From assembly GCF_040207125.1 (NCBI RefSeq), contig NZ_CP157940.1:2976001-3040000 (forward strand): DNA of 64,000 nt, read 5' to 3'. The DNA is from Lacrimispora sp. BS-2 (GTDB taxonomy: Bacteria > Bacillota > Clostridia > Lachnospirales > Lachnospiraceae). The position numbers were made by a program, and so were the translations under genes. Shown in pieces: positions 13,221 through 36,385 of the stretch. The notes beneath the pieces were generated by a model. The model searched no databases. It had not been told where the DNA came from and saw nothing but the letters and a program-made list of their open reading frames with translations. Within the stretch, counting starts at the first letter, position 1. The number at the start of each line of letters is the position of its first letter.

Positions 13221-13262
13221 AAACAAAAAAATCCCGGTATTGGGGGTGTCCAATACTGGGAT
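13221..13262 (-). terminator. Terminator of the alpha (rpmJ-rplQ) operon, inside repeat copy A
   Basis: Minus strand ATCCCAGTATTGG pairs with CCAATACCGGGAT, then TTTTTTTGTTTTT. It takes the place of the third hairpin of the structured repeat. Confidence 0.88.
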
Positions 13263-13365
13263 GGGGCATTCGCCCTATGAATAAAGGCCCGATATAACTT
13301 TCTTATGTGCGAGCACAACGAAAATTATATCAGACCTTTATTCAACACTGCTCATTGCTTTCGTG
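13231..13365 (-). repeat. Structured repeat, copy A
   Basis: Begins two bases after the rplQ stop codon. Head CACGAAAGCAATGAGCAGTG (13365-13346); long stem TGAATAAAGGTCTGATATAA paired with TTATATCGGGCCTTTATTCA (two G-U pairs); loop TTTTCGTTGTGC, two bases, GCACATAAGAAA; small hairpin GGGCGAATGCCC (13275-13264); then the terminator hairpin as third stem. The closing GCACTGC of copies B and C is absent. See copies at 34746 and 36241. Confidence 0.85.
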
Positions 13366-13367
13366 GA

Positions 13368-13904
13368 TTATACGAGTTCAAGCACAACTGCCATTGCTCC
13401 GTCACCCTTACGCTGGCCGATCTTAACGATACGTGTGTAACCACCGTTGCGGGATACGTACTTTGGTGCAACTTCATCAAACAGTTTCTTTGGCAGATCA
13501 ACAGATTTTGTATTTTTCTTTCTTCCTGCAGCCTGTGCGGGAACTTCTGTTACATCGTAAAGAACTTTTAACATCTGTCTTCTTGCGTGAAGTCTGGAAG
13601 GAAGGTCTTTCTTGATCTCTTTCTCTACTTCATCGTATACGGTAACTTTCTTGCCGTTAACAACTTCTTTTACTCTCTTGCCGTCTTTATCTTTACGTGC
13701 AACCTTTGCGGTAACTTTAACAGTCTCAAAGTTGTCTTTTTCTTTTACCGCTAAAGCGATGAGGCCTTCAGCCACCTTGCGGATTTCTTTTGCTCTTGCC
13801 TCTGTTGTCACGATTTTGCCATTATATATTAATGCAGTTACCTGGCTTCTGATTAATGCTTTTCTCTGGCTGGAAGTTCTTCCCAGCTTTCTATATCCTG
13901 CCAT
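13368..13904 (-). CDS. rplQ: 50S ribosomal protein L17 (bL17)
   Basis: 178 residues from the ATG at 13904 (GGAGG upstream); E. coli L17 is 127. N terminus AGYRKLGRTSSQRKALIRSQ and the end GGYTRIVKIGQRKGDGA are canonical. The extra length is a lysine-rich insertion in the middle (around VKEVVNGKKVTVYDEVEKE and the VPAQAAGRKKNTKS stretch), seen in clostridial relatives from memory. Last gene of the alpha operon; repeat copy A with its terminator follows. Confidence 0.97.
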   Translation of the reverse strand: MAGYRKLGRTSSQRKALIRSQVTALIYNGKIVTTEARAKEIRKVAEGLIALAVKEKDNFETVKVTAKVARKDKDGKRVKEVVNGKKVTVYDEVEKEIKKDLPSRLHARRQMLKVLYDVTEVPAQAAGRKKNTKSVDLPKKLFDEVAPKYVSRNGGYTRIVKIGQRKGDGAMAVVLELV

Positions 13905-14002
13905 TTTAATATTCCTCCATTTGTGGAACACAGGTACACGCTTCTTCGGACTTACTGTACCAGTGCTTAATCTCCATAAATTACCTGCTTCAAGCGGTCC
14001 AG

Positions 14003-14971
14003 TTATACACCGGCATCATCGCTTGGGTTAAGCTGCAAGCCTAACTCTTTTAATTTGGCCAACACTTCTTCTAAAGACTTGCGGCCCAGGTTACGAACCT
14101 TCATCATGTCTTCGGAGGTACGGTTACACAGTTCTTCCACTGTATTGATACCGGCTCTCTTCAGGCAGTTGTATGAACGGACAGAAAGCTCCAGTTCATC
14201 AATGTTCATCTCCAGAACCTTTTCCTTTTCATTATCCTCTTTTTCCACCATGACTTCTGCAGTCTTAGCGTTCTCAGATAGATCAATGAACAGGTTCAAG
14301 TGCTCGCTGAGCACCTTTGCGGCAAGGCTGACCGCCTCATCCGGTGCCGAAGTACCGTTTGTAAATACATCTAATGTCAGCTTATCATAATCGGTAACCT
14401 GACCTACTCGGGTGTTTTCTACCGTCATATTGACGCGCTCGACTGGTGTATAGATAGAATCAACGGCAATTACGCCAATCGGTAAATCTTCACTCTTATT
14501 CTTGTCTGCGCTTACATAGCCACGGCCTTTGGTGATAGTAAGTTCCATATAGAATTTGCTGTCAGTGCCGCCGCTGAGTGTTGCAATGATCTGCTCCGGA
14601 TTCATAACCTCAATATCCGGATCCGCCTGAATGTCCGCAGCCGTTATTACGCCTTCGCCTTCAAACTCAATGTATGCAACCTTTGCTTCGTTGGTATCGC
14701 TGTTATTTTTAATAGATAAGCTCTTGATGTTCATGATGATCTCAGTCACATCTTCCTTAACACCTGGAATAGAACTGAATTCATGCAAAACGCCGTCGAT
14801 TTTTACCTGACTGACTGCAGCGCCCGGTAAGGAAGAAAGCATGATTCTTCTTAAGGAATTTCCTAAAGTCGTGCCATAACCTCTTTCAAGCGGTTCAACT
14901 ACAAACTTGCCATATTTCTTGTCTTCTGAGATTTCAGCAATCTCAATGTTTGGTTTTTCAAAATCGAACAC
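14003..14971 (-). CDS. rpoA: DNA-directed RNA polymerase subunit alpha
   Basis: 322 residues from a GTG at 14971, chosen because AGGAGGGG lies six bases upstream and the product then starts at the family's usual [10 protein letters not shown]-terminal assembly domain ([24 protein letters not shown]), an acidic linker, and the C-terminal domain ([28 protein letters not shown]) that binds UP elements and activators. Sits between rpsD and rplQ as in all alpha operons. Confidence 0.98.
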
Positions 14972-15024
14972 TAATAGCCCCTCCTTTTGGGTATTTTGTA
15001 TCGAGGGTCTTATACTCAAACCTT

Positions 15025-15047
15025 GCCCAGGGGGGGAACCCCCGGGC
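15025..15047. other. GC-rich hairpin between rpsD and rpoA
   Basis: GCCCAGGGGGG, AA, CCCCCGGGC: a near-perfect G/C stem with no T-tract after it, about 50 nt before the rpoA start. Possibly a processing or attenuation element; function unknown. Confidence 0.5.
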
Positions 15048-15077
15048 GAAAGCCGGCTTCAATCAACAGACTTTCAA

Positions 15078-15671
15078 TTATTTGGAGTACAACTCGACGA
15101 TAAGCATTTCATTCACCGGAACATCAATCTCATCTCTTGTTGGTAACTCTTTTACAGTACCACGTAAATTCTCATGGTCAACATCAAGCCATGCCGGAAC
15201 CATACGTCCTGCGGTTGATTCCTGAACACTTTTGAATCTTGAATTGGCTTTGCATTTCTCTTTAACTTCGATCACATCTCCAGCCTTAATTAAATAGGAA
15301 GGAATGTTTACGCATTTGCCGTTTACAAGAATGCTCTTATGGTCAACCATCTGTCTGGTCTCTCTTCTTGTTCTTCCGAATCCCATACGGAATACTACAT
15401 TGTCAAGTCTTCTCTCCAGAAGGATCATCAGGTTTTCACCTACCAGACCATTCATTCTGGAAGCCTTTGCATAGTAGTTACGGAAAGGTTTCTCAAGAAC
15501 TCCGTAGATGAATTTAGCTTTCTGCTTTTCTCTAAGCTGAATGCCGTATTCACTCATCTTTCTGTTAGCTCTTTTTAATTCTCTGTTTGATTTTTTATCT
15601 ATTCCTAAATAGATTGGATCAAGACCAAGGGATCTACATCTTTTAAGAACAGGAACTCTATCAACTGCCAC
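15078..15671 (-). CDS. rpsD: 30S ribosomal protein S4 (uS4)
   Basis: 197 residues. S4 RNA-binding domain in the middle (LERRLDNVVFRMGFG, MVDHKSILVNGKCVNIPSYLI). The N-terminal region has a single Cys, so this is the zinc-free form. A primary 16S rRNA binder and, in known species, autoregulator of the alpha operon. 17 nt after rpsK. Confidence 0.97.
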   Translation of the reverse strand: MAVDRVPVLKRCRSLGLDPIYLGIDKKSNRELKRANRKMSEYGIQLREKQKAKFIYGVLEKPFRNYYAKASRMNGLVGENLMILLERRLDNVVFRMGFGRTRRETRQMVDHKSILVNGKCVNIPSYLIKAGDVIEVKEKCKANSRFKSVQESTAGRMVPAWLDVDHENLRGTVKELPTRDEIDVPVNEMLIVELYSK

Positions 15672-15687
15672 TGTAATTACCTCCTAA

Positions 15688-16089
15688 TTAGACTCTTCTA
15701 CGTTTTGGTGGACGACAACCGTTATGTGGAACCGGGGTTACATCCTTAATGCTGGTTACCTCTAATCCGCATGCCTGAAGTGCACGAATAGCTGCTTCAC
15801 GGCCTGAACCAGGACCTTTAACCATAACGTCTACTGATTTTAAACCATGCACAAGAGCTGCCTTAGTAGCAGTTTCTGCCGCCATCTGAGCTGCATATGG
15901 AGTAGATTTCCTTGAACCTCTAAAGCCAAGACCACCAGCACTTGCCCAGGATAATGCGTTACCCTGTGTATCTGTTAATGTCACGATCGTGTTATTAAAA
16001 GATGACTGGATATGTGCTTGTCCGCGTTCAACGTTTTTCTTTACGCGCTTTTTTGTCACTTTTTTAGTAGTGGACATTTTTTTAGCCAT
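15688..16089 (-). CDS. rpsK: 30S ribosomal protein S11 (uS11)
   Basis: 133 residues with a lysine-rich start; [18 protein letters not shown] and the C-terminal [15 protein letters not shown] are diagnostic. Part of the 30S platform. Between rpsM (108-nt gap without visible features) and rpsD. Confidence 0.98.
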
Positions 16090-16197
16090 TTTAAACTAAC
16101 CTACTTTCTTTTTACTTGCATCTGAATCCTGTTATTCCTGTTTTTAAAACATGTAACGTGATTCGCTGTTATTGGGTGTGGATATTCTTATCCCTGC

Positions 16198-16566
16198 TTA
16201 TTTCTTCTTGTTTGCTACAGTCTTTCTAGGACCCTTGCGAGTTCTTGCGTTGGTCTTTGTCTTCTGACCACGAACTGGCAGGCTCTTTCTATGACGGATT
16301 CCGCGGTAGCATCCGATTTCCTGAAGTCTCTTGATATTCATAGCGATCTCTCTACGTAAATCACCTTCAACGATCTGAGATTCAGTAATTACTGTTGAAA
16401 TTCTCTTTACTTCGTCGTCTGTTAAGTCCTTAACACGAGTATCAGGACTAACGCCAGCCTCTGTCAGAATGCGGTTTGAACTTGTTCTGCCGATACCGTA
16501 GATATAGGTCAAGCCGATCTCAACACGTTTTTCTCTTGGTAAATCAACACCTGAAATACGAGCCAT
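16198..16566 (-). CDS. rpsM: 30S ribosomal protein S13 (uS13)
   Basis: 122 residues. [20 protein letters not shown] and the C-terminal [20 protein letters not shown] are diagnostic; the basic tail contacts P-site tRNA in known ribosomes. 27 nt after rpmJ. Confidence 0.98.
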
Positions 16567-16593
16567 TTGTGTATTACACCTCCATTAATTTTT

Positions 16594-16707
16594 TTAACCT
16601 TGTCTCTGCTTATGCTTAGGATTTTCACAGATTACTCTGATACTGCCTTTTCTCTTGATGATTTTGCACTTTTCGCAAATTGGTTTGACTGATGATCTAA
16701 CCTTCAC
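16594..16707 (-). CDS. rpmJ: 50S ribosomal protein L36 (bL36), zinc form
   Basis: 37 residues. Starts with GTG at 16707, with AAAGGAG seven bases upstream. Sequence begins [14 protein letters not shown] and ends HKQRQG; Cys11, Cys14, Cys27 and His32 form the zinc ribbon. Too short for routine ORF calling. First gene of the alpha-operon segment, behind its own promoter and a long leader. Confidence 0.96.
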
Positions 16708-16935
16708 AGCAATTCTCCTTTCCGTTATGCGCCCTTTCCCACTCAGCATTTACCGTCTGTCTTTCAGACGTTTCCGCACAAAAGCGCTCCCACACCCGTC
16801 CGGCTCTTTTACGAGCCTGGTGGCGATGGAGCTCTTTTTAGAAAGAGCCTTCTGAGTATACCCGCAGTGTGTTTTATCGTAAAACCAGTGCTGCCCGTAA
16901 GGGCATAATACACCCAGTATTTCAACAAAGTCGCT
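16708..16935 (-). promoter_or_regulatory. Long structured leader of rpmJ-rpsM-rpsK-rpsD-rpoA-rplQ
   Basis: About 230 nt without a gene. On the minus strand it carries successive hairpins: GCCCTTACGGGC; GTTTTACGATAAAAC; GGCTCTTTCTAAAAAGAGC; GGCTCGTAAAAGAGCC; CGTCTGAAAGACAGACG. Such a leader suggests autoregulation (S4 in known alpha operons). The identity of the regulator is inference. Confidence 0.6.
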
Positions 16936-16940
16936 ATAGC

Positions 16941-16969
16941 ATTATAACACTGTTTATTTTAAAATGCAA
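16941..16969 (-). promoter_or_regulatory. Strong sigma-A promoter of the alpha operon
   Basis: Minus strand TTGCAT, 17-nt spacer, TATAAT, located between infA and rpmJ. Confidence 0.88.
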
Positions 16970-17051
16970 GCACTTTTTCCTATATAATTATTAACCCTTT
17001 ACCCTGGCGTGTCGCGCCTGAGAAACAGGCAGTGTTTTATGAAACAACGCC

Positions 17052-17270
17052 TTATTTGTCTCTCCAGATAATTCTTCCCTTGCTTAAATCATAAGGGGAC
17101 ATCTCAATGGTCACTTTATCTCCCGGTAAAATACGAATGTAGTTCATGCGAAGTTTTCCGCTGATGTGAGCAAGTACCTGATGGCCATTCTCCAGTTCTA
17201 CCTGGAACATGGCGTTGGGAAGCTTCTCCACAACGGTTCCTTCAATTTCAATAACATCTGCTTTTGACAT
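17052..17270 (-). CDS. infA: Translation initiation factor IF-1
   Basis: 72 residues, standard length: an OB-fold ([51 protein letters not shown]). Binds the 30S A site during initiation. Follows the KOW-protein gene by 5 nt. After its stop comes a hairpin region (16995-17045, GGCG...CGCC with inner GCCTG/CAGGC) without a T-tract, then the rpmJ promoter. Confidence 0.98.
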
Positions 17271-17275
17271 AAAGC

Positions 17276-17557
17276 TTACCTCCTAACAACCTGTTCTTCT
17301 CTTTTGAAACATCTGATGAAATGTTTGATTTCTTCATCGGTGACTGATTTATTTTCCCGGATCTTCACTCCGGGAGAATGCTTCTCCCATAAAAGGGCTT
17401 TCACATGCTTTTTCTTTTTCTTCTTCGGGCAATTGAAACGTCTGCTTTTTCCGTCCACCAAATATATATATTCGCCTTCTTCCCGCAATATGAAGAAATA
17501 ACCGCCTTTATCGTGTCCCGCCGTAGATTTCACCAATGCCCCGGTACTTAATTCCAT
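17276..17557 (-). CDS. KOW-domain RNA-binding protein (L14e-like)
   Basis: 93 residues from the ATG at 17557, chosen because GAGGAA overlapping the map stop codon lies six bases upstream; earlier in-frame starts sit inside map. Starts [18 protein letters not shown], a KOW-type beta start, then a run of six lysines ([14 protein letters not shown]). Small KOW proteins at this place between map and infA are common in Firmicutes. Inferred: RNA or ribosome-associated; exact role unknown. Confidence 0.8.
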
Positions 17558-17567
17558 GGGCATTTCC

Positions 17568-18332
17568 TCAGCGGACATGGGAAACCAGACTAAGAATCTC
17601 CGGTTCACCCTCCGTAATCAATACGGTATTTTCATAATGAGCAGAAAGGCTTCCATCCTCTGTTACCACGGTCCAGTCATCATCAAGCCATACGACCTCC
17701 GGTGTTCCCCCATTGATCATGGGTTCGATGGCCAGGGTCATTCCCGGCTTTAATTTGATTCCCCGTCTTTTCCGTGCAAAGTTCGGCACCTCCGGCTCCT
17801 CATGGAGATGAGTGCCGATTCCATGGCCTACCAGATCCCGGACAACTCCAAATCCAAATTTTTCTGCATGGATCTGGATTGCAGCAGATATATCATTGAG
17901 ATGATTGCCAGATTTTGCAAATTTAATCCCTTCAAAGAAACATTGTCTTGTCACTTCTATGAGCTGCCCTGCGTGGGGAGTGATCTCCCCGATTCCGTAA
18001 GTCCTTGCCGCATCGGAATGATATCCTTTGTAAATAACCCCGGCATCCAGGCTTACGATATCGCCCTCCATTAAAACCCGTTTTTTACTTGGAATCCCAT
18101 GAACCACTTCATCGTTTACAGAAACGCAGATGGAGGCAGGATAACCGTTATAATTCAGGAAAGAGGGTGTACAGCCGTAGCTCCTTATGATTTCTTCTCC
18201 CAGATGATCAATATCCCAGGTTGTCATCCCCGGCTTCAAGGCTTTTGAAAGTTCTTCGTGAGTTTTACAAAGAATCCTTCCCGCCTCTCTCATAAGTTCT
18301 ATCTCTCTTGCAGATTTAATCGTAACTGACAT
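17568..18332 (-). CDS. map: Methionine aminopeptidase, type I
   Basis: 254 residues. Removes the initiator methionine from new proteins. Metal ligands visible: Asp in SLDAGVIYKGYHSDAART (two Asp), His in GHGIGTHLHEEP, Glu in AIEPMIN and Glu in SAHYENTVLIT. Lies four bases after adk. Confidence 0.97.
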   Translation of the reverse strand: MSVTIKSAREIELMREAGRILCKTHEELSKALKPGMTTWDIDHLGEEIIRSYGCTPSFLNYNGYPASICVSVNDEVVHGIPSKKRVLMEGDIVSLDAGVIYKGYHSDAARTYGIGEITPHAGQLIEVTRQCFFEGIKFAKSGNHLNDISAAIQIHAEKFGFGVVRDLVGHGIGTHLHEEPEVPNFARKRRGIKLKPGMTLAIEPMINGGTPEVVWLDDDWTVVTEDGSLSAHYENTVLITEGEPEILSLVSHVR

Positions 18333-18335
18333 AAA

Positions 18336-18980
18336 CTATGCTCCTAATAGGACAGCGATGTCCGAGAACACCTTGTTTAATTCCTGTGTTCCATCAATAT
18401 TCACCAACACACCGGCTTCCTTATAATATTCGATCAGAGGCTTTGTCTGATCATGGTAGACCGACAAACGCTTTTTAACGGTTTCCGGTTTATCATCATC
18501 CCGCAGAACAAGTCCTGCTTTGCACACGTCGCATACATCGGGAACCCTGCTTGGATTATACACAATATGGTATGTAGCTCCGCAGGCAATGCAAGCACGA
18601 CGGCCTGCCATTCTGTCTATAATTATCTCATCCGGTACATCCACATTAATCGCAAAGTCAACCTTCTGTCCCATCTCTGAAAGCGCCTTTTTAAGGCTTT
18701 CCGCCTGGGGAATGGTTCTTGGAAAACCATCCAGCACGTATCCGTTTTCACAGTCATCATCCTGAATACGGTCCATCAGCATGCCAATGGTCAGTTCATC
18801 CGGCACAAGAGCGCCCTGATCCATGTATTCCTTTGCCTTCCTGCCTAACTCTGTTCCTTCTTTAATATTGGAGCGGAAAATATCTCCAGTAGAAATATGG
18901 GGAATCTGATACTTTTCAGCAATCTTTTTTGCCTGGGTACCTTTGCCGGCACCAGGAGCACCTAACATGATAATTCTCAT
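18336..18980 (-). CDS. adk: Adenylate kinase, zinc-lid type
   Basis: 214 residues. P-loop GAPGAGKGTQ, AMP-site segment HISTGDIFR and DGFPRT. The lid has four cysteines (CIACG and CDVCKAG), the structural-zinc form typical of Gram-positives. Interconverts ATP + AMP and 2 ADP. Between secY and map as in most spc operons, but separated from secY by a 193-nt gap full of hairpins. Confidence 0.97.
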   Translation of the reverse strand: MRIIMLGAPGAGKGTQAKKIAEKYQIPHISTGDIFRSNIKEGTELGRKAKEYMDQGALVPDELTIGMLMDRIQDDDCENGYVLDGFPRTIPQAESLKKALSEMGQKVDFAINVDVPDEIIIDRMAGRRACIACGATYHIVYNPSRVPDVCDVCKAGLVLRDDDKPETVKKRLSVYHDQTKPLIEYYKEAGVLVNIDGTQELNKVFSDIAVLLGA

Positions 18981-18989
18981 AAACAGTCC

Positions 18990-19170
18990 CTCCCTTACAT
19001 GAAATACGTAACTTTCTTAAGGTTAATGATAAGAAACATGCTATGCGGGCTTCTTATCATTACCGCGGCAGTGGCCTCATGGACATGCAAGCATGCTCAT
19101 TGGGCTCGTTGCACGCGTAAATAACACAAATTCCAAGAGAAACACGCCGTGCGTGTTTCTCTTGGTTTGT
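18990..19170 (-). repeat. Hairpin cluster between secY and adk (possible dispersed repeat)
   Basis: Minus strand order: perfect 14-bp hairpin CCAAGAGAAACACG/CGTGTTTCTCTTGG (19165-19133), GCATGC-TT-GCATG stem with the preceding ACGAGCCCAATGAGCA (19110-19096), then perfect 12-bp hairpin TAATGATAAGAA/TTCTTATCATTA (19062-19024). No T-tract follows. The ACGAxxxCAATGAGCA string matches 13 of 16 positions of the structured repeat's head, so it may be a distant relative; this is weak. Confidence 0.5.
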
Positions 19171-19173
19171 CCT

Positions 19174-20496
19174 CTAATCGTTTAAAAATCCTTTATAATA
19201 GCGCACAAGCATCTGAGATTCAATCGCCTTCAACGTCTCTAAGACTACACTGACGATGATGATTAAAGATGTACCTCCAAAGGATAAATGGCTTACATTG
19301 AATAAGCCGGAAACCATGATCGGAATGATACAGATGATCGTCAAGCCGCATGCGCCTATAAATACGATATAGTTCAAAATAGAATTGAGATAATCACTGG
19401 TTGGTTTTCCTGGACGGATGCCCGGGATAAAACCGCCGGATTTTTTCATGTTATTCGCAACTTCAAGCGGATTAAAGGTGATTGATGTATAAAAATAAGC
19501 GAATATAATGATAAGTGCTACGTATACAAGCAGACCAATGGTATATAAGGGTCTTTCCGGTTTGAACCAGCTGGAAGAATTCAGTGCCGTTAAAATGTGG
19601 CCTCCAATGCTGTTGTAGTTGATCTTAGTCCCAAAAAACTGGGAAATCACTACTGGGAACGACATAATGGAGGAAGCGAAGATAACCGGGATAACACCGG
19701 CTGTATTCACCTTTAACGGAATGTTGGTGGCTTGACCGCCGACCATCTTCCGTCCCTGCATCTTTTTGGAATACTGCACAGGAATTCTTCTCTCACCATT
19801 CTGAAGGATAACAACAAATACAACTATGGCTACGATAACAGCTACGATAATAATGGCTGCAACTGCTGCTACGGCAACCGCTTTTCCAGAGATAAATCTG
19901 GTATATAAGGTTGACGCATCGGACGGAAAGCTGGAAATAATGTTAAAGGTCAAGACAATGGAAATACCATTTCCCACACCTTTTTCCGTAATACGCTCAC
20001 CGATCCACATCAGAAGAGCACTACCTGCCGTCATGGTTGCAACAGCAATGATAATACTTAATACGTTAAATTCTTTTAACAGACCCTGGCCGCCGAATCC
20101 AATCGCCATAGCGACGGACTCGATTAAAGCCAGACCAACTGTTACGTAACGGGTGTATTCTGCAATCTTTTTTCTCCCATCTTCCCCATCGCGCTGCATT
20201 TCCTCAAGCTTTGGAATCGCTATAGTCAAAAGCTGCATAATAATGGAAGATGTGATGTAAGGGGTAATGCTCAGTGCGAATACTGACATGTTGGTAAAAG
20301 AACTACCTGTCATAGCGTTGAAGAATCCAAACGCGTCGTTATTCTGCCGAGCAAAAAAATCTTTAAAGAAGCTTGTTTCAACTCCTGGAATCGGCAATTG
20401 AGAACCGATCCTAGTAACCACCAGCATCATGAACGTATAGATGAGTTTCTTTCTTACGTCCTTGATCTTGAATGCATTACGGAGTGTTTTTAACAT
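19174..20496 (-). CDS. secY: Protein translocase subunit SecY
   Basis: 440 residues with about ten membrane segments. RIGSQLPIPGVETSFF near the N terminus and GGFIPGIRPGKPT in the C-terminal half are SecY landmarks. Forms the protein-conducting channel with SecE/SecG. Directly follows rplO (one base between them). Confidence 0.98.
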   Translation of the reverse strand: MLKTLRNAFKIKDVRKKLIYTFMMLVVTRIGSQLPIPGVETSFFKDFFARQNNDAFGFFNAMTGSSFTNMSVFALSITPYITSSIIMQLLTIAIPKLEEMQRDGEDGRKKIAEYTRYVTVGLALIESVAMAIGFGGQGLLKEFNVLSIIIAVATMTAGSALLMWIGERITEKGVGNGISIVLTFNIISSFPSDASTLYTRFISGKAVAVAAVAAIIIVAVIVAIVVFVVILQNGERRIPVQYSKKMQGRKMVGGQATNIPLKVNTAGVIPVIFASSIMSFPVVISQFFGTKINYNSIGGHILTALNSSSWFKPERPLYTIGLLVYVALIIIFAYFYTSITFNPLEVANNMKKSGGFIPGIRPGKPTSDYLNSILNYIVFIGACGLTIICIIPIMVSGLFNVSHLSFGGTSLIIIVSVVLETLKAIESQMLVRYYKGFLND

Positions 20497-20497
20497 A

Positions 20498-29005: not shown

Positions 29006-29641
29006 TTAGTTAGATGCCTTTACTGTTTCCTTGATTGTTACTAAAGACTTCTTAGGTCCTGGTACGGCACCCTTAACCAGAATCAGGTTGTTTTCTGCAT
29101 CAACCTTAACGATTTCAAGGTTCTGGATTGTAATCCTCTTGTTACCCATCTGGCCAGGCATCTTTTTGCCCTTGAATACCTTGCTGGGATCAGAAGCAGC
29201 ACCGTTGGAACCTGCATGACGGTGGAACTTGGAACCGTGAGCCATAGGTCCTCTGGACTGTCCGTGTCTCTTAATAGCACCCTGGAAACCTTTACCTTTG
29301 GAGATTGCGGTTGCATCGATCTTGTCGCCTGCCGCGAAGATCTCAGCCTTGATTTCATCTTTTACAGAATACTGATCAGCATTCTCAAGCTTAAACTCTC
29401 TTACATATCTTTTGTAAGATACACCGGCCTTATCAAAATGGCCTTTTACTGGCTTGCTGACAAGTTTTTCTCTCTTATCAACGTAACCAACCTGTACTGC
29501 ACTGTAACCATCGTTCTCTACGGTCTTTACCTGTGTTACTACACAAGGACCAGCCTGAAGAACTGTTACCGGAGTTAAGACTCCGTTTTCATTGAAGATC
29601 TGTGTCATTCCGACTTTGGTAGCTAAAATACCCTTCTTCAT
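29006..29641 (-). CDS. rplC: 50S ribosomal protein L3 (uL3)
   Basis: 211 residues. [19 protein letters not shown], and the loop [20 protein letters not shown] close to the peptidyl-transferase centre. Preceded by a 271-nt gap with hairpins rather than the usual short spacer to rpsJ. Confidence 0.98.
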
Positions 29642-29912
29642 GTTTTTACCTCCTGTTTGTTAATTCTACAGCGGATTGCTTTCGCAATCATCCTAGAACA
29701 GCCCAATATACGTGGAACACTATGACTCCGTCTGACGGTATCATGATCGCACTGCAATCATGATCACCATTCGCCGCTGACAGAAAGTGGTAACACTCTC
29801 TTCTCGCTTTTGCTCATGGAGATGTTGATTCCTTACAGGAAAAAGTGTTGCTTCTATATTAAAACCCTTCAGGACATGCATGGAATAGTTTCCATAATGG
29901 TTCTGATGAAGA
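29642..29912 (-). promoter_or_regulatory. Structured spacer between rpsJ and rplC
   Basis: 271 nt without a gene. Contains GATTGC-GAAA-GCAATC, a stem capped by a GNRA tetraloop (29689-29674), and a pair of ATCATGAT palindromes around 29739-29767. No clear promoter was found. It may be a second control point for rplC onward, or mRNA processing. Confidence 0.45.
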
Positions 29913-30230
29913 TTATTTATTCTTCATCTTGATATCGATATACACACCTGCCGGCATTTCCAGTCTGGATAATGCATCAACAGTCTTCTGGCTTGGTGTA
30001 ATGATATCAATGAGTCTCTTATGCGTTCTCTGCTCGAACTGCTCTCTTGAATCTTTGTACTTGTGAACCGCCCTTAAGATGGTTACCACTTCCTTCTTGG
30101 TTGGTAACGGCACCGGTCCACTCACTTTTGATCCTGTCTTTTTTACAGTGTCGATAATTTTACCTGCAGACTGATCAACCAACTGATGATCATACGCTTT
30201 TAATGTGATTCTCATTACTTGACTTGCCAT
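29913..30230 (-). CDS. rpsJ: 30S ribosomal protein S10 (uS10)
   Basis: 105 residues; [48 protein letters not shown], and [26 protein letters not shown]. First gene of the operon; also the NusA/NusB partner NusE in antitermination. AAAGGAGG upstream. Confidence 0.98.
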
Positions 30231-30455
30231 AAAAAAAGTCGCCTCCTTTTCGCACTTAGTAGAAGTACGACAAGCGGTGACTGTACACGTTCCCGTGTGT
30301 GTCCTATAGGATCACACACTGACTTCCTGTTTAGATAAACAGAATTTTAAATTGTACAGTGACTTGTCGCCAGTTTCCTAACTTGACATTCGCTCCACGG
30401 AAAACCTGCTTTTATAAGCAGCAACCTCACGCTTCACAGCTATCCTGCCACAGCC
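30231..30455 (-). promoter_or_regulatory. Structured leader RNA of the S10 operon
   Basis: About 220 nt from promoter to rpsJ. CGACAAG/TGACTGTACA near 30268-30286 pairs with TGTACAGTGACTTGTCG at 30353-30369, enclosing two perfect hairpins: GTGTGTG/CACACAC (30295-30319, loop with CCTATAGG) and CTGTTT/AAACAG (30327-30342). This makes a cruciform-like fold. L4-mediated control is known for S10 leaders elsewhere; here it is inference. Confidence 0.65.
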
Positions 30456-30460
30456 TTTGT

Positions 30461-30489
30461 ATGATAACATATTTTTTTTTACATTGCAA
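30461..30489 (-). promoter_or_regulatory. Sigma-A promoter of the S10 operon
   Basis: Minus strand TTGCAA, 17-nt A-rich spacer, TATCAT. Confidence 0.87.
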
Positions 30490-30500
30490 GCATTTTTTTC

Positions 30501-30541
30501 AAAAAAATTGGCGTAAAACCTGATTTTCCAGGTTTTACGCC
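30501..30541 (-). terminator. Intrinsic terminator of the wall-binding gene upstream of S10
   Basis: Minus strand GGCGTAAAACCTG, short loop, CAGGTTTTACGCC, then AATTTTTTT. It insulates the S10 promoter just downstream. Confidence 0.92.
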
Positions 30542-30557
30542 ATAAATCGCTCTTTTC

Positions 30558-31910
30558 CTAATTCCATGCCGGTTCTGTGGGGGTTCTGCCTTCTCCGCTT
30601 GGGTTTTCATCATCTACCTTTAATAAATTCCCGTTGCTTCCGGTCTTATACTTCACTCCCTCAGAGTTCTTTACCGTGGTATTTTTGGCTACCTTGCCGG
30701 AAGTATTCACCACATAAGTAGTGGTGGTGCTTCCTGTCGGAATGGCAATGGCTTCATATTTGGTTCCTTCATCCGCACATTGAAGCTTTCCCATATAATA
30801 CAGGGAACCATCCTTAACTCCGGTATAACCGCGGCCGCTGTCACTGAAATAATAGGTGGCATCGCTTCCGTCTCCCTCGATCACCTTTACCCTTCCCTTT
30901 TGCATGGTGCTGGTTTTCTTATCTCCGAAATAAAATGCCGTATATTCTGAAGAATTTCCAATCATCACCTTCTGCAGTCCATATACAGGGTTGCCCAGGT
31001 TGTTAAACAGATAGGTTTTATCATTAATTTTAGTTATATTCTGAGTGGTGGCCTTTCCTTCCTTTGGACCGGTCTTTGGAACACCGGAATTTGAAAAATA
31101 AAACCATTCTACGCTCTCTTCATAGCCGGAAATATCCTGAGGCGGTTCCACAGAATACCAGCCCACTCTCAGTTTTCCATTGCTGTCATAATATTTATAA
31201 TTCTGGATATCATACTCGGCAGTTTCAACTCCAACGTTCTTCCAGCCGGTCTGAAGCGCTCCCTCTGAATCAAAGCAATAGGCTACTCCGTCAATCTTAT
31301 AGGAAGCATAATCCCCGGACATATCCCTTGGTGTATACTTTTTCCCGCTGTCATTAAAGTAATACCAGTATTTTCCATCGTCGTTATCCCCAGGAGTGAC
31401 ACGGTCACTGTCGTAATTGCTGTCCGGGGAGAAAAGCTTCTGCCAGCCGGTACGCATGGCTCCATCGGTTCCGCAGTAATACAGATTATCAAGGACCCAG
31501 CCGGTCTGCATCTCGCCATTGGGATCAAAGTAATACCACTTGTTATTGATCTTGGACCAATTATCCATAATGGCTTTTCCGCTGCTGCCAAAATAATACC
31601 ACTTGTACTGAGAGCTGCCTGAATCCTGGAATTTCATCCACTTATCCGTGACCAGGATTCCGTTGGAGTCCATATAATAAGTATTTTCCACCCAGGTATT
31701 TACGGCCATCTCACCATTGCTGTTTAAATAACGCCAAAGGTTGTCCGCTCCCTTTTTCCAGGTATTTGTAACTCTGTTCCCACTATCATCTTTATAAATC
31801 CATGCATTCCCCGAACCAGACTGTTCCCAACCAGCCCAAGCGTCCATGGATGAAGTACCAATTGCCAGCATAGCCGCAGCAGCTAACACAATGAGACCTT
31901 TTCTTTTCAT
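30558..31910 (-). CDS. Secreted protein built of cell-wall-binding aromatic repeats
   Basis: 450 residues. Signal peptide (KGLIVLAAAAMLAIGTSSMDAWA), then almost entirely aromatic repeats such as NKWYYFDPNGEMQTGW, DNLYYCGTDGAMRTGW and YYMGKLQ, of the choline/glucan-binding class. No catalytic domain is visible; the tail is Pro/Glu/Thr-rich (GEGRTPTEPAWN). A third member of the type found at 10800-13076, though lacking the FN3-like part. Own promoter and terminator, so a single-gene unit. Likely wall-attached; ligand unknown. Confidence 0.85.
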   Translation of the reverse strand: MKRKGLIVLAAAAMLAIGTSSMDAWAGWEQSGSGNAWIYKDDSGNRVTNTWKKGADNLWRYLNSNGEMAVNTWVENTYYMDSNGILVTDKWMKFQDSGSSQYKWYYFGSSGKAIMDNWSKINNKWYYFDPNGEMQTGWVLDNLYYCGTDGAMRTGWQKLFSPDSNYDSDRVTPGDNDDGKYWYYFNDSGKKYTPRDMSGDYASYKIDGVAYCFDSEGALQTGWKNVGVETAEYDIQNYKYYDSNGKLRVGWYSVEPPQDISGYEESVEWFYFSNSGVPKTGPKEGKATTQNITKINDKTYLFNNLGNPVYGLQKVMIGNSSEYTAFYFGDKKTSTMQKGRVKVIEGDGSDATYYFSDSGRGYTGVKDGSLYYMGKLQCADEGTKYEAIAIPTGSTTTTYVVNTSGKVAKNTTVKNSEGVKYKTGSNGNLLKVDDENPSGEGRTPTEPAWN

Positions 31911-31951
31911 ATCCTCACTCCTTACAGGGATTTCCTTTTTTGCTATTATTT

Positions 31952-31980
31952 ATTTTAACAATTAATCTTAGATTATTCAA
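31952..31980 (-). promoter_or_regulatory. Sigma-A promoter of the 450-residue wall-binding gene
   Basis: Minus strand TTGAAT, 17-nt spacer, TAAAAT. Confidence 0.78.
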
Positions 31981-32231
31981 CTGTTTTAATCTTTCAATTC
32001 TATTACGAAATTATTTCCCTCTGCCTTTTTTACGTCTTTACCTTAAAAAGAGCAGTCAAAAATATTGAAATATTTGATTTACTGAGTTTATTTACTGAGT
32101 TTCACATCAACTCGAAAAAAGAAATGCAAACTAATAGGACTGAGTCCTGTACAATACAGAATCCAGTCCCATAAAGCTGCTTAATGAAATGATGCCCTGC
32201 ATAGAATCCTCAAACAAGAATTCTTTTTAAG
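31981..32231. other. Intergenic region with one hairpin
   Basis: AT-rich. The only structure seen is GGACTG...CAGTCC with inner CTGT/ACAG at 32137-32169, probably the terminator of the Cys-rich gene, though its T-tract is poor. Confidence 0.5.
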
Positions 32232-32447
32232 CTAATTGCAGCGATTGTTACAGCCCCAGCTGCCACAGCATCTATTGCACCGGTTGCAGCAGCCCCGATT
32301 ACAGCAATTATTAAAGCCGCTGCTCCAGCCCCAGTTACATCCATTGTTCCAGCCCCAGTTACATCGGTTGCAGCAGTTATTATTGATTCCCCAATTCCAG
32401 CCGCAGCCGCAGTTACCGGCAGTAAATCCTATATTAAAACAACACAT
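32232..32447 (-). CDS. Small Cys/Asn/Trp/Gly-rich repeat protein
   Basis: 71 residues, of which roughly a quarter are Cys. Begins MCCFNIGFTAGNCGCGWNWG and continues as degenerate CNRCNWGW / NNGCNWGW / CCNRGCCNRC repeats. GAGGTG stands before the ATG and TATAAT-like sequence further up (32475-32480). No family recognised. Composition recalls spore-coat, metal-binding or adhesive Cys-rich peptides; no evidence chooses between them. The opposite strand also has an open frame, a by-product of the repeats. Confidence 0.6.
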   Translation of the reverse strand: MCCFNIGFTAGNCGCGWNWGINNNCCNRCNWGWNNGCNWGWSSGFNNCCNRGCCNRCNRCCGSWGCNNRCN

Positions 32448-32657
32448 AAATTTTACACCTCACAATTTGGAATTATACTATATTATATAGGACAAAAGAC
32501 AAGGTGTGATTATAGCCCTTTTTCCATCGATTTTCCCGTACTTGACGCTCCCGGCTCTATCCAGTATAATCAAGGAAGTTCAAATTGCCTTTGGCTCATT
32601 GAACGGATCATTTGAGAAAACTACTATTAACTATTTATGGAAAGGGCGGCACCAATT

Positions 32658-33524
32658 ATGTGGATTGCAGACGGCTGGAAAGATTATGAAGTGATAGACT
32701 GTTCAGAAGGAGAAAAGCTTGAGCGCTGGGGAAACTATCTCCTTGTTCGTCCTGACCCACAGGTTATCTGGTCCACTCCCAAGAAAGAAAAAGGCTGGAA
32801 GAAAATGAACGGCCACTATCACCGCAGCGTGAAGGGCGGAGGCGAGTGGGAGTTTTTCGATCTTCCGGAACAGTGGACAATCAGTTATAAGGATTTAACC
32901 TTTCAATTAAAGCCTTTCAGCTTTAAGCATACAGGACTCTTTCCGGAGCAGGCAGCCAACTGGGACTGGTTCAGTGAAAAAATAAAACAGGCCGGACGGC
33001 CTGTAAAAGTGCTGAACTTATTCGCCTACACCGGAGGTGCTACCCTGGCAGCGGCAAAGGCCGGAGCTTCTGTCACTCATGTTGATGCGTCCAAGGGAAT
33101 GGTCGGCTGGGCCAAGGAAAATGCCCGCTCCTCCAATTTAGAATCCGCTTCCATCCGCTGGATCGTGGATGACTGCGTGAAATTCGTTGAAAGAGAGATC
33201 AGAAGGGGAAACCATTACGATGCGATCATTATGGATCCTCCTTCCTACGGAAGAGGGCCAAAGGGCGAAATCTGGAAAATAGAAGATGCCATACATCCTC
33301 TCGTTCATCTGTGCGCCCAGCTTTTATCCGAAAAACCACTGTTTTTCCTCATCAATTCCTATACCACAGGCTTGGCTCCTTCTGTATTAACCTATATGAT
33401 ATCCATTGAGGTGAAACAAAAATACGGCGGTGTTGTAGAGTCCGGGGAAATCGGGCTTCCAGTCACAAGCACCGGTCTTCTCCTGCCCTGCGGCGCATCC
33501 GGCAGATGGTCGGCAAACGCGTAA
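32658..33524 (+). CDS. SAM-dependent rRNA methyltransferase-like protein (RlmI/RlmK type)
   Basis: 288 residues from the ATG at 32658, giving the family-like start MWIADGWKDYEVIDCSEGEKLERWG. A small N-terminal beta domain precedes a Rossmann methyltransferase: motif I VLNLFAYTGGATLAAAKAGA, acidic end HVDASKGMV, and catalytic-loop motif DPPSYGRGPKGEIW. DPPSY/F is typical of RlmI/RlmK 23S rRNA cytosine-5 or guanine-7 methyltransferases. The exact site is not known. No strong ribosome binding site is visible, so the start is uncertain by a few codons. Confidence 0.82.
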   Translation: MWIADGWKDYEVIDCSEGEKLERWGNYLLVRPDPQVIWSTPKKEKGWKKMNGHYHRSVKGGGEWEFFDLPEQWTISYKDLTFQLKPFSFKHTGLFPEQAANWDWFSEKIKQAGRPVKVLNLFAYTGGATLAAAKAGASVTHVDASKGMVGWAKENARSSNLESASIRWIVDDCVKFVEREIRRGNHYDAIIMDPPSYGRGPKGEIWKIEDAIHPLVHLCAQLLSEKPLFFLINSYTTGLAPSVLTYMISIEVKQKYGGVVESGEIGLPVTSTGLLLPCGASGRWSANA

Positions 33525-33531
33525 GACCCGT

Positions 33532-34569
33532 TTACCTTCCACCGTTTAACAGACACCACAGGCCCGGAAGGAAACGCCTTAACAACCGCCCTATCTGATA
33601 ACTGAAGAAGACACAAAAAAGCGGCATGAGCAGAAACAGGCCAAACGGCACTGCAGAAACAGTCGGGAGCAGCAATGCTCCCGTTTTGTTCATCAGCCTC
33701 ACCATGGCAAAGTGAGTTGCATAAAGGAAAAAGTTCTGCTTCATCCATTCCTTTGCCTCTATCAGATGCTTCTCCGGTACCATGAGCCATAATCCCACCG
33801 GAACAAGAAGCCGGAAACATACGTCAGAAGCTGCCATCTCCCCTTTGATATCTCCTGGAAAATCAACCCAGTATAGAAAAAAGGCTGCTATAAGAACCGC
33901 GGCACCTGCCTCAAGGTATTTTAAATTCCAGGGCCCTTCTACGATCTTTTTCCCATGAATGGCTGCAAAGGCCCCGAAAGAATAATAAAACAGGGCATCC
34001 AGATTCAAAAAAGGAAGCACCGCTCCCATATAGATTGCTGCCAAAATTCCCGCAAGAAATAAACAGCCCGTTTTCTTCCGCTTTACAATGATATAAATAA
34101 GGGGGGCCAGAAGGATCAGCTGGATCAGTTGGTTCAAATACCAGAATACATAATTATACTTATAATGAAGGACCGATTCAGCTGCCATGGTAATTGTAAA
34201 AGGCACTTTTCCCTTTCCTATGATATCAGAAAGCACCGGAATCCGGCTGCCGACGACATATCCAAGATAGTAAAGGAAATTCCATACAATATAGGGAACC
34301 AACACGCTCCGTATCCTGGAATTCCACTTTACCATGAGGCGGTCCAGAGTAAAGCCTCGAAAGAAAAGATAGGAGGAAATCAGGAAGAAGCCCGGTACGG
34401 CAATCTGCGCCACCGCGCCACCTAAAAACCGTTCCATCCAGTCTGTCTTATAGGCCAGCCTTGTGCTGCCTAAGAACAATACCGCATTGTAGGAGTGGAC
34501 CCATATGACCAGAAAACTATATAGAAATGTAAACCATGTGATTTTATTTCGAAAATATTTTTCTTCCAC
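33532..34569 (-). CDS. Membrane acyltransferase, acyltransferase-3 family
   Basis: 345 residues from a GTG at 34569, chosen for AGGAGG six bases upstream. About ten membrane segments; the first contains WVHSYNAVLF with the conserved His of the family, followed by FFLISSYLFFRGF. Members O-acetylate peptidoglycan, polysaccharides or lipids at the membrane; the substrate here is unknown. Convergent with the methyltransferase gene, only seven bases apart and without a visible terminator. Confidence 0.85.
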   Translation of the reverse strand: MEEKYFRNKITWFTFLYSFLVIWVHSYNAVLFLGSTRLAYKTDWMERFLGGAVAQIAVPGFFLISSYLFFRGFTLDRLMVKWNSRIRSVLVPYIVWNFLYYLGYVVGSRIPVLSDIIGKGKVPFTITMAAESVLHYKYNYVFWYLNQLIQLILLAPLIYIIVKRKKTGCLFLAGILAAIYMGAVLPFLNLDALFYYSFGAFAAIHGKKIVEGPWNLKYLEAGAAVLIAAFFLYWVDFPGDIKGEMAASDVCFRLLVPVGLWLMVPEKHLIEAKEWMKQNFFLYATHFAMVRLMNKTGALLLPTVSAVPFGLFLLMPLFCVFFSYQIGRLLRRFLPGLWCLLNGGR

Positions 34570-34736
34570 GAAAGCCCTCCTCTCTGCATTTTTATATTTT
34601 ATCACAGGACAAGAAGCTTTATCAAACTATTTTCACCAAAACGATTCTGATTGGTCAAATGAGGCATTACTACCAAAATAAGGAAAATTTTCAAAATTTT
34701 CACATGTTTTTCCACCCTACTGCGTAGGGTATATGG
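34570..34736. other. Intergenic region upstream of the subtilase leader
   Basis: AT-rich, divergent space between the acyltransferase and the subtilase leader. It contains the dyad at 34714-34730 and no gene. Confidence 0.5.
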
Positions 34737-34742
34737 TATAAT
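34714..34742 (+). promoter_or_regulatory. Subtilase promoter with operator-like dyad
   Basis: TATAAT at 34737-34742 with no good -35 box at 17 nt. Instead a perfect dyad ACCCTAC-TGC-GTAGGGT (34714-34730) sits six bases before it. This fits an activator-dependent or repressed promoter (a MerR-like dyad between the boxes is one option). The regulator is unknown. Confidence 0.65.
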
Positions 34743-34745
34743 ACA

Positions 34746-34890
34746 CACGAAAGCAATGAGCAGTGCGAAACAGTCCATGACAAGATTTTCGTTGTGCCTG
34801 CACATAAGAAAATCTTGTCATGAACTGTTTCATAGGGCGAATGCCCGTGAGCTGGTAAAACCGCAGGTTTTACCAGCTGCACTGCGGACC
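34746..34890 (+). repeat. Structured repeat, copy B (5' leader of the subtilase)
   Basis: Head CACGAAAGCAATGAGCAGTG (34746-34765), right at the expected transcription start. Long stem GAAACAGTCCATGACAAGAT (34767-34786) pairs with ATCTTGTCATGAACTGTTTC (34812-34831), one mismatch; loop TTTTCGTTGTGC, CT, GCACATAAGAAAA; hairpin GGGCGAATGCCC (34835-34846); third hairpin AGCTGGTAAAACC/GGTTTTACCAGCT (34850-34878); closing GCACTGC (34879-34885) pairs with GCAGTGC of the head. Confidence 0.88.
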
Positions 34891-34946
34891 TATGGCATAA
34901 TAAAAACAATTTCAAAAATTGTTTTATATATAAGGAGATAGAAACC

Positions 34947-36248
34947 ATGAAAAAAACAACTCGCGCTGCCTGTCTGATCCTAGCCCTCCTTCTCGCAGGC
35001 CTGCCCTTTATTAACAGCCCTGATCCCGGAAAAGCCCCCCAAAAGACCTTGACCAGCGCACTTCAAACATATTCTTCGGACAGCGGACAAGCCTTGCGGA
35101 CTATGGCCCTTGGCCCGGGCCTTGTAAACTTATCCCCCTCGGATGAATTTTCCACTTACCAGTGGGGACTAAAAAATGACGGAGAATTCCACCTTATAGA
35201 GTTAAAATCCAGATTTAAATCCGTTGATAATATTTACGATGGGAGGAAATCAAAAGATGGCGCATTAAAGCCCGGCCCCGGAGATTATGAATCTACAGTA
35301 ATCGGCGCTGTCACGGGAATTGATATTAACATACAGCCTGCATGGAAACTTTATGACCAGGCTGAAAACAAGCGTTCCGTTATTGTTGCCATTATCGATA
35401 CCGGCATTGATATCAATCATCAGGAGCTTAAAGATGCCATATGGACCAATCCCGGCGAGATTGACGGGGATGGGATCGATAACAACGGCGACGGATATGT
35501 GGATGATATTCACGGTTGGAATTTTTATTCCGGAAACAACCAGGTCTTTACCGGCAGTGAGGACACCCATGGAACCCATGCGGCAGGAACCATCAGTGCT
35601 GCACGGGGAGCCTACGGCATTGCCGGAATCACGGATAATAATTACGTTAAGATCATGCCCTTAAAGGCCCTTGGAGGCGAAGACGGACTGGGATCCCCGG
35701 AGGCAGTAATCCAGGCTATCCATTATGCCGAAGCACATGGTGCTTCCATCTGCAATCTGAGCATGGGCACCACTGCTTACAGTGAAGAACTGGCCCTGAC
35801 CATAAAAAATTCCAGGATGCTGTTTGTGGTTTCCTGCGGAAACGGCGGAATCTCCGGACTTGGATATGATACAGACATCTACCCTGTTTATCCGGCTTCC
35901 CTGCCTTATGACAACATCATTTCCGTGGCAAACCTCCTGTTTGACGGAAGCTTGGGCAAGGATTCCAACTATGGCGCAAACAGTGTTGATATAGCCGCCC
36001 CTGGCAGCTACATATTAAGTACTGTTCCAGGAAATGCCTATGGCTTTATGAGCGGCACTTCCATGGCAGCTCCCATGGTAACAGGCGTAGCCGCTATGCT
36101 CTATTCCTACCGGCAGGATATATCCCTGTCTGATGTAAAAAATATTCTTTTAAGCTCCAGCAGGAAGCTGGATACCCTGACAGGAAAAATGGTAAGCGGA
36201 GGCCTTTTAGATGCCCACGCCGCCCTGACATGGCAACATTCACGATAG
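34947..36248 (+). CDS. Secreted subtilisin-like serine protease (S8 family)
   Basis: 433 residues. Signal peptide (TTRAACLILALLLAGLPF). Catalytic triad visible: Asp in VAIIDTGIDINHQEL, His in DTHGTHAAGTISA, Ser in GTSMAAPMVTGVAAML; the oxyanion Asn is in VVSCGNGG. A DGDGIDNNGDGYVDD loop resembles a calcium site. There is no clear pro-domain; residues about 50-110 carry the QWGLKN...AWKLYD segment common in clostridial S8 proteases. AAGGAGA before the ATG. The gene lies between repeat copies B and C, and its last codons and TAG lie inside copy C. An AAAACAATTT/AAATTGTTTT hairpin (34903-34925) precedes the ribosome binding site. Confidence 0.93.
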   Translation: MKKTTRAACLILALLLAGLPFINSPDPGKAPQKTLTSALQTYSSDSGQALRTMALGPGLVNLSPSDEFSTYQWGLKNDGEFHLIELKSRFKSVDNIYDGRKSKDGALKPGPGDYESTVIGAVTGIDINIQPAWKLYDQAENKRSVIVAIIDTGIDINHQELKDAIWTNPGEIDGDGIDNNGDGYVDDIHGWNFYSGNNQVFTGSEDTHGTHAAGTISAARGAYGIAGITDNNYVKIMPLKALGGEDGLGSPEAVIQAIHYAEAHGASICNLSMGTTAYSEELALTIKNSRMLFVVSCGNGGISGLGYDTDIYPVYPASLPYDNIISVANLLFDGSLGKDSNYGANSVDIAAPGSYILSTVPGNAYGFMSGTSMAAPMVTGVAAMLYSYRQDISLSDVKNILLSSSRKLDTLTGKMVSGGLLDAHAALTWQHSR

Positions 36249-36385
36249 CAATGAGCAGTGCGAAACAGGACAGGAAAAGATTTTCGTTGTGCTTGCACAT
36301 AAGAAAATTTTTTCCTGTCCTGTTTCATAGGGCGAATGCCCGCGAGCCAGCGAATCTGCAGGATTCGCTGGCTGCACTGCGGACT
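36241..36385 (+). repeat. Structured repeat, copy C (overlaps subtilase stop codon)
   Basis: Head CACGATAGCAATGAGCAGTG (36241-36260), one base different from copies A and B, and that difference creates the subtilase TAG. Stem GAAACAGGACAGGAAAAGAT (36262-36281) pairs with ATTTTTTCCTGTCCTGTTTC (36307-36326), one G-U. Loop TTTTCGTTGTGC, TT, GCACATAAGAAAA; hairpin GGGCGAATGCCC (36330-36341); third hairpin AGCCAGCGAATC/GATTCGCTGGCT; closing GCACTGC (36374-36380) pairs with head GCAGTGC. Confidence 0.88.

Follow-up and report, generated by a model that had tools for sequence, protein, structure and literature searches.

The window, a stretch of 64,000 nucleotides from Lacrimispora sp. BS-2, carries three members of a family of hairpin elements at the places where an earlier note had put them. 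Copies B (34746..34890, plus strand; 166.5 bits) and C (36241..36385, plus strand; 167.5 bits) are full elements of 145 nt, and flank a gene for an S8 (subtilase) peptidase (34947..36248, plus strand; PF00082, E 6e-41). Copy B lies in the putative promoter of this gene, with an extended -10-like box (TGGTATAAT, 34734..34742, plus strand) 3 nt upstream of it and a -10-like right end (TATGGCATAAT, 34891..34901, plus strand) behind it. Copy C overlaps the end of the same gene, and its head (CACGATAGC) provides the TAG stop codon (36246..36248, plus strand). Copy A was shorter than claimed: it is a 3'-truncated member of 103 nt (13263..13365, minus strand), cut after the GGGC-GAAT-GCCC hairpin. 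It starts 2 nt past the stop codon of its host gene, rplQ (ribosomal protein L17; 13368..13931, minus strand; PF01196, E 1e-28), and has longer orthologues in genomes G001, G005, G007, G008, G011, G013 and G014.

The element is about 145 nt long and consists of a closing stem, GCAGTGC/GCACTGC, that encloses three hairpins. The first is a long hairpin with an invariant 19-nt tip (copy A, CGTTGTGCTCGCACATAAG, 13302..13320, minus strand; copy B, 34790..34808, and copy C, 36285..36303, plus strand). It is followed by a short GGGC-GAAU-GCCC hairpin and then by the third hairpin. The three copies do share the head, the tip loop and GGGCGAATGCCC, and copies B and C adopted the fold and closure ascribed to them, with predicted energies of -76.5 and -83.0 kcal/mol. 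Full copies terminate in GCACTGCGGACT or near it. The two ends, CACGAAAGC and GCACTGCGGACT, showed no inverted-repeat relation in 39 aligned copies, and the right end varies.

A third covarying hairpin had also been assigned to copy A. This hairpin is the native terminator of the rplQ operon (CATCCCAGTATTGG..CCAATACCGGGATTTTTTT, about 13224..13262, minus strand), outside the element, and a counterpart was present in all 16 element-free genomes read. Since it stands in the empty sites, it could not be counted as covarying.

A search with the loop pattern (up to three mismatches, truncated copies included) found 24 copies in the same genome, and the reversed pattern, used as a control, found none. 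The 51 raw covariance-model matches in this genome were rejected as a copy number, because many model matches on examined loci were antisense matches to the hairpin. Across the family, the model matched 150 of 397 Lachnospiraceae genomes. By the loop pattern, G008 had 21 copies and G014 had 13. Of the 34 Lacrimispora loci, 21 each occurred in at least two genomes, so many insertions are old. One such copy, with a PucR-like regulator on one side and an ftsE-like ABC gene on the other, was found in 16 of 25 genomes of the genus and in one genome of another genus. Behind full copies there were also 5'-truncated tandem partial copies, several of which begin near the hairpin tip.

Filled and empty sites were compared at five loci. 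The element was present in 8 and absent from 16 of 24 genomes at rplQ. At the trpS promoter there were 7 filled and 16 empty sites and one contig edge (24 genomes), and at groEL 6 filled sites, one remnant, 17 empty sites and one uninformative case (25 genomes). A second promoter locus gave 6 filled sites, one with an internal deletion and 17 empty sites (24 genomes), and a second stop-codon locus 7 filled and 18 empty sites (25 genomes). The presence of the element in some species and of an empty site in others showed, by parsimony on these sequences, that the copies arose by insertion. The proposal of a structured family that is dispersed and has been mobile on an evolutionary time scale was supported. 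No clear target-site duplication was seen at the five loci, where the right junction has diverged. At trpS and the second promoter locus, a -10 box (TACAAT, TATGAT or near) stood in the empty sites read, so a -10 box encoded by the element is not general. The T at -2 may be element-borne.

The left end was placed with precision. Among 98 distinct, de-duplicated sites, 51 had a -10-like hexamer exactly 3 nt upstream, against a mean of 1.9 per spacer at spacers 9–39. Spacers 1 (19 sites), 2 (5) and 8 (16) were also raised, at least partly through overlapping matches to one box. The 56 sites with spacers of 2–4 gave an extended -10 logo, TRTGnTATAAT, and 11 of them had a -35 match of at least 5/6, compared with 1.6% in shuffles. 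In 35 of the 98 sites the stop codon of the upstream gene lay at -4 to +15 of the left end (7 of these were also in the promoter class), and 14 sites, counted by hand, belonged to neither class. The opposite strand gave no placement peak (at most 6 of 84 sites at any spacer). These results showed that at most sites the left end, in sense orientation, lies 3 nt past a -10-like box or at the upstream stop codon. With this placement, an mRNA would start with the element, or the element would directly trail a coding region. Positions 1–3, CAC, were conserved in promoter copies, and from the -10 spacing they should precede the transcript start. Of 34 Lacrimispora loci, 10 had a -10-like pattern at the right end, against 1 of 48 elsewhere; in control windows the counts were 2 of 34 and 4 of 48, respectively. 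A right-end copy of the -10 box as the cause of target choice was therefore rejected as a general rule.

The compensatory change noticed in three copies was borne out in the larger alignment. Of 52 pairs in 39 aligned copies, 30 had changed on both sides; 94.8% of the cells were paired, compared with only 35–53% when the structures were slid along the alignment. There were 273 two-sided cells versus 83 in shuffled alignments, and none of 500 shuffles reached any of five covariation measures, a control that can be inflated by the relatedness of the copies.

The Lacrimispora copies contained 6040 Watson-Crick, 105 G-U and 99 A-C pairs. G-U made up 1.7% of standard pairs, versus 7.4% (66 of 894) for 41 tRNAs from this genome; this control gives the G-U share only, as ARAGORN brackets formed pairs and the zero A-C count there is uninformative. 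The scarcity of G-U means that covariation alone is no proof of RNA function, and suggested that much of the stem pairing may be kept at the DNA level. The claim that structure rather than sequence is kept is, taken alone, no sign of an RNA. Outside Lacrimispora, G-U exceeded A-C by 87 to 41 in 63 sequences; these include some that score low or belong to other types with the tip, and only 86–90% of their cells were Watson-Crick. Within the genus, the two most diverged bins gave 171:72 and 110:50. The excess of G-U in other genera favoured some selection at the RNA level and weakened a strictly DNA-only reading of the stems. The element would also offer a case for testing covariation as DNA-level palindrome correction versus RNA selection.

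The apical stem was the most conserved part (0.7–2.5% divergent); the short hairpin diverged by 4.6–6.0% and the pooled unpaired positions by 5.9–11.7%. In four divergence bins, the element had 7, 30, 49 and 74 indels, versus 22, 136, 258 and 373 in the 130-nt downstream flank. The upstream flank (185 nt, often coding) had 2, 8, 40 and 91, which at short range was no more than in the element. At the shortest range the stems diverged no less than the downstream flank. Length and pairing have been retained in most copies over species divergence, and some copies are degenerate.

No Rfam family matched the window above its gathering cut-off, in agreement with the earlier note, which knew no named family of this kind. 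That statement needs a qualification: the nearest family, Clostridiales-1 (RF01699), has exactly the same tip. Copy C, its only match in 34500–36600, scored 40.7 bits where 48 are needed. The best match in the whole genome by that model was 30.8 bits in a separate search, again with none above the cut-off, and 20 loci of other genera gave no gathering match. Of 14 loci picked by the exact 19-nt tip, CGTTGTGCTYGCACATAAG, 6 had passing Clostridiales-1 matches. Both families have a closing stem round hairpin arms, the first of them long with the identical tip; they differ in head, middle arm and third arm, and the Clostridiales-1 third arm (GATTGnGGGAG..) was absent from the 39 aligned copies. 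Clostridiales-1 comes from Clostridia, with the human gut as one source, and a table in a paper of 2010 gives it as a probable RNA that is unlikely to be cis-regulatory (PMC2864571).

We interpreted the family as probably one of non-autonomous mobile hairpin elements across the Lachnospiraceae, largely kept intact after insertion. A trans-acting factor would recognize tip and stem, most likely in the form of a hairpin of single-stranded DNA, and would insert the element beside a TATAAT/TAA-like target or where a strand is exposed. The palindrome might then be kept partly through template-switch correction in replication and partly through selection on the transcribed structure, which could act as an exonuclease block at mRNA ends. 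If so, a mobile element has added a layer of regulation to genes of a major family of gut bacteria: an inserted hairpin, uniform in length, that sits exactly where the message starts or just past the stop.

A structured RNA that serves the host, similar to Clostridiales-1 and acting in 5' leaders, in 3' UTR modules or as processed small RNAs, would duplicate only occasionally and be retained for its function. The one-stranded placement sense to transcription, the conserved apical stem, the low number of indels relative to the downstream flank, the old PucR-like/ftsE-like copy and the G-U excess in other genera are all consistent with it. We consider it unlikely, though the strongest of the rivals, from the independent insertions into unrelated genes, the conservation of CAC outside the expected transcript, the near equality of G-U and A-C in Lacrimispora, and the stem divergence at shortest range. 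The same CAC argues against a SINE-like retroelement, in which the transcript of a promoter copy would be reverse-transcribed in trans and then inserted. The left end, close to where the transcript should start, and the 5'-truncated partial copies would suit such a route, but by eye these partial copies resemble their own local full copy and so look like local tandem duplications, which left it very improbable. Intrinsic terminators or attenuators, hinted at earlier, are hardly credible: the real terminator behind copy A, with its U-run, belongs to rplQ, full copies have no U-run directly after a hairpin, and promoter copies such as that at trpS separate a promoter from its own gene.

Mobilization by a Y1 (HUH) transposase, as a REP or an IS200/IS605-derived miniature element, appeared rather improbable. 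REP/BIME palindromes are dispersed, extragenic and present in many copies together with RAYT transposases, in systems with a GTAG-type foot. The element is likewise dispersed, extragenic, palindromic and multicopy, but it is 145 nt long with several arms, is sharply placed at promoters and stops, and has no established Y1 partner. IS200/IS605-derived miniature elements have subterminal hairpins, ends that are not inverted repeats and no target duplication. The element resembles them in its hairpins a few nucleotides inside such ends and in the lack of a clear duplication; it differs in its long promoter-like target context, and no autonomous relative was found at the loci searched. Its ends and the lack of a clear duplication also set it apart from a classical MITE, which has terminal inverted repeats and a short target duplication. 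Y1 transposases were present in 20 of 25 genomes of the genus, including 5 of 7 element-rich ones, but were not found in the element-rich G008 and G014, and one HUH-like motif had no match in ORFs of at least 110 residues at 407 loci near copies. A Y1 partner was therefore not supported, although Y1 may have been lost from G008 and G014 after the element had spread. Viral contigs gave no tip or body matches, plasmids no copy-B matches and phages no copy-C matches. Ty3, a eukaryotic retrotransposon that encodes its own enzymes, also inserts at transcription starts, those of Pol III; no kinship is claimed.

A literature search recognized no paper describing the element family, and four short tip and head strings were in none of the full texts searched, a scope outside which subscription journals and preprints lay. 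The tip does recur in an unnamed palindrome family beginning GTTACTATTCAC, which accounts for 38 of 121 tips, carries the tip on a long, variable stem, differs from the element in its ends and right-hand part, and gave no Rfam gathering match at six loci tested. With one tip common to at least three architectures, the mobile-element reading can be taken further, tentatively and at somewhat less than even chances: the machinery would read promoter DNA in its open state, or a TATAAT/TAA-like target there, and write a fixed, RNA-ready sense hairpin at message ends, at transcription starts and translation stops, and Clostridiales-1 would join the same mobile, tip-sharing superfamily. In the GTTACTATTCAC family, the stop codon of an upstream ORF lay within 11 nt in 7 of 38 cases by hand count.

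The three copies of the self-pairing repeat claimed by the earlier note were all found at their positions in the window. Copy B (34746-34890) folded into a closing stem, a 24-bp hairpin, a GGGC-GAAU-GCCC hairpin and a 13-bp hairpin, and copy C (36241-36385) folded into the same figure; in both, the 24-bp hairpin bore a 4-bp apical stem. The stop codon of the S8 peptidase gene lay at least partly inside copy C. Copy A (claimed at 13231-13365, minus strand), by rplQ, consisted of only the first 103 nt of the element; the third hairpin was missing, as was the 3' half of the closing stem. Of the 24 genomes of the genus in which rplQ was matched, 16 lacked the element, and there the stop codon was followed by a terminator like the one behind copy A. 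The stretch after copy A is therefore the terminator of the rplQ operon, not the third hairpin of the element for which it had been taken.

Allowing up to 3 mismatches, a search for the loop pattern gave 24 copies in the window's genome, and its reverse gave none. At up to 2 mismatches it was present in 14 of 61 genomes (60 relatives and the own genome). In the genus, 13-24 matches were found in 7 genomes, the own one among them, 1-2 in 6 and none in 12. One of the 12 same-family genomes had a match, without recognisable head and tail, and the 24 same-order genomes had none at up to 2 mismatches. A covariance model built from 39 copies was run, as the earlier note had proposed, on other Lachnospiraceae (E 0.001 or better, 8 candidates scored per genome). 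It matched 150 of 397 genomes (137 of 334 genera), which is not a clean count, as weak matches may drop out and some of the weaker hits may belong to other types that bear the tip. Since the long hairpin is hit on both strands, raw model counts exceed the true number of copies. By eye, the best match in most of 28 loci from other genera shared its head, tip and GGGC hairpin with the family. The element family is real and widespread and, as far as Rfam and literature searches reach, unnamed. One Lacrimispora genome carried about nine loop matches in tandem at 140-bp spacing (locus L258, G011:C1:4100129-4101314), with a strong model match only for the first unit.

The sites of the family are unusual and sharply defined. 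The 109 sites collected (34 Lacrimispora loci, 28 other-genus loci and 47 named) were reduced to 98 without near-duplicates. A -10-like hexamer stood exactly 3 nt upstream of the left end (head side) at 51 of the 98, against an average of 1.9 for spacers 9-39; spacers 1, 2 and 8 held 19, 5 and 16 sites, in part at least because one box can match at overlapping positions. The 56 sites with a spacer of 2-4 gave the extended -10 logo TRTGnTATAAT. A -35 match of 5/6 or better was present at 11 of these 56 and at none of the remaining 42. At 35 of the 98 sites an upstream open frame of at least 80 codons had its stop at -4 to +15 relative to the left end. These stop positions peaked at -4 (7 sites), +7 (7) and +8 (10), and 24 of the 35 stops lay at least partly within the element. 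By hand count, the 56 promoter sites and 28 further stop-codon sites made up 84 of the 98. Of the 14 sites left over, 3 had a T run ahead of the element. The same count at the right end, read on the opposite strand, gave no -10 spacer above 6 of 84 sites, and stops there were scattered. Judged from position alone, the first structure in a message, or the first one behind a coding region, would be the element, which might protect mRNA ends, bind a protein or have no effect.

Filled and empty sites were read by hand from printed stretches. The rplQ locus was filled in 8 and empty in 16 of 24 genomes, and the trpS promoter filled in 7, empty in 16 and at a contig edge in 1 of 24. The groEL end was filled in 6 of 25, with 1 remnant, 17 empty and 1 uninformative. 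A second promoter locus was filled in 6 of 24, internally deleted in 1 and empty in 17; a second stop-codon locus was filled in 7 and empty in 18 of 25. A -10 box was present in the empty sites read at both promoter loci. None of the five loci showed a clear target duplication. The 125 full sense copies among those fetched represented 34 loci, and 21 of the 34 were common to at least two genomes, so many insertions are older than the splits between those species. Degenerate copies were copy A, L005, L021, L022, L050, the groEL remnant of genome G007 and the deletion in G013. Indels were rarer in the element than in its downstream flank (130 nt), by a factor of about three to five; over four divergence bins the element had 7, 30, 49 and 74, against 2, 8, 40 and 91 in the upstream flank, which is often coding. 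One old copy (L161 and orthologues, L254, L093), flanked by a PucR-like regulator gene and an ftsE-like ABC gene, was read in 16 of the 25 genomes of the genus and in a single genome from a different genus; compensatory changes had occurred in place.

Partial copies truncated at the 5' side stood in tandem behind a full copy at L166, L167, L170, L172, L087, L090, L098 and L105, several starting near the hairpin tip. They matched the local full copy by eye and likely arose by local duplication. At L229, L212, L197 and L024, copies were followed by short tandem tails of the last arm and GCACTGCGGACT-like units.

The compensatory change that the earlier note had seen in the stems held in the larger alignment: among 39 copies, 30 of 52 pairs had two-sided change and 94.8% of cells were paired; two-sided cells numbered 273, compared with 82.8 after shuffling. 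Pairs in 124 distinct Lacrimispora copies were 6040 Watson-Crick, 105 G-U, 99 A-C and 187 other mismatches. Among 24 orthologous copy pairs whose flanks were 97% or more alike, the one-sided differences comprised 16 G-U, 22 A-C and 31 of transversion types, and 10 differences were two-sided. Over five bins of rising divergence, whose copy pairs are not independent of one another, two-sided changes per copy pair were 0.4, 2.3, 3.2, 3.6 and 8.2 (10/24, 143/63, 211/65, 365/101 and 278/34), and one-sided changes 2.9, 3.3, 3.2, 3.7 and 6.7. At the closest range the two long stems were 4.0% and 5.3% divergent, not below the downstream flank (2.7%); further out, the longest stem was 12.2, 12.8 and 13.0% divergent, against 14.5, 23.7 and 26.0% for that flank. 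At short range the pattern resembles free emergence of mismatches followed by later correction, as by template switching in replication. PMC8794818 argues that hairpins can be maintained by such switching.

G-U exceeded A-C in the two most diverged bins (171:72 and 110:50). The same excess in 63 sequences from other genera (87:41) means that RNA-level selection may also act on the element. Most likely, a putative trans-acting factor acts on the hairpin as DNA. CAC is conserved at the left end and, by the -10 spacing, should sit just upstream of the transcript start; that it is kept, though expected outside the transcript, speaks for a DNA terminus. A Y1 transposase as the mobilising enzyme was not supported; Y1 genes were present in 5 of 7 element-rich genomes. 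At about -3 of the promoter, the left end falls within the region melted in the open complex, and at several stop-codon sites a TAA is in register with that of TATAAT. Targets could thus be chosen through exposed DNA or through a short TAA-like sequence, and either could account for the placement.

The named loci retrieved contained the exact tip CGTTGTGCTYGCACATAAG 121 times. By crude rules, its bodies were 52 of this family, 38 palindromes starting GTTACTATTCAC, 10 Clostridiales-1-like arms and 21 unassigned, several of which resemble Clostridiales-1. Among the matches listed, named records with the exact tip in any architecture came from Lacrimispora, Hungatella, Hespellia, Enterocloster and Blautia. 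The family is akin to Clostridiales-1 (RF01699) by this tip, but the window copies did not reach the Rfam cut-off of 48 bits, which 6 of 14 exact-tip loci tested passed. That unlike bodies carry an identical tip suggests shared descent or a binding factor that they have in common. At L317, L359 and L403 the tip stood on a lone hairpin with long arms that were almost complementary, and a Clostridiales-1 match lay directly downstream of a T-box leader (L387:2124-2588, minus strand).

Elsewhere in the window, 30364-30445 (minus strand) matched the S10-Clostridia ribosomal protein leader (RF03136) at 92.6 bits. Degenerate direct repeats, presumably of the type seen in cell-wall-binding repeat proteins, lay at 10861-12289 and 31242-31580, and those at 11994-12289 fell within an ORF.
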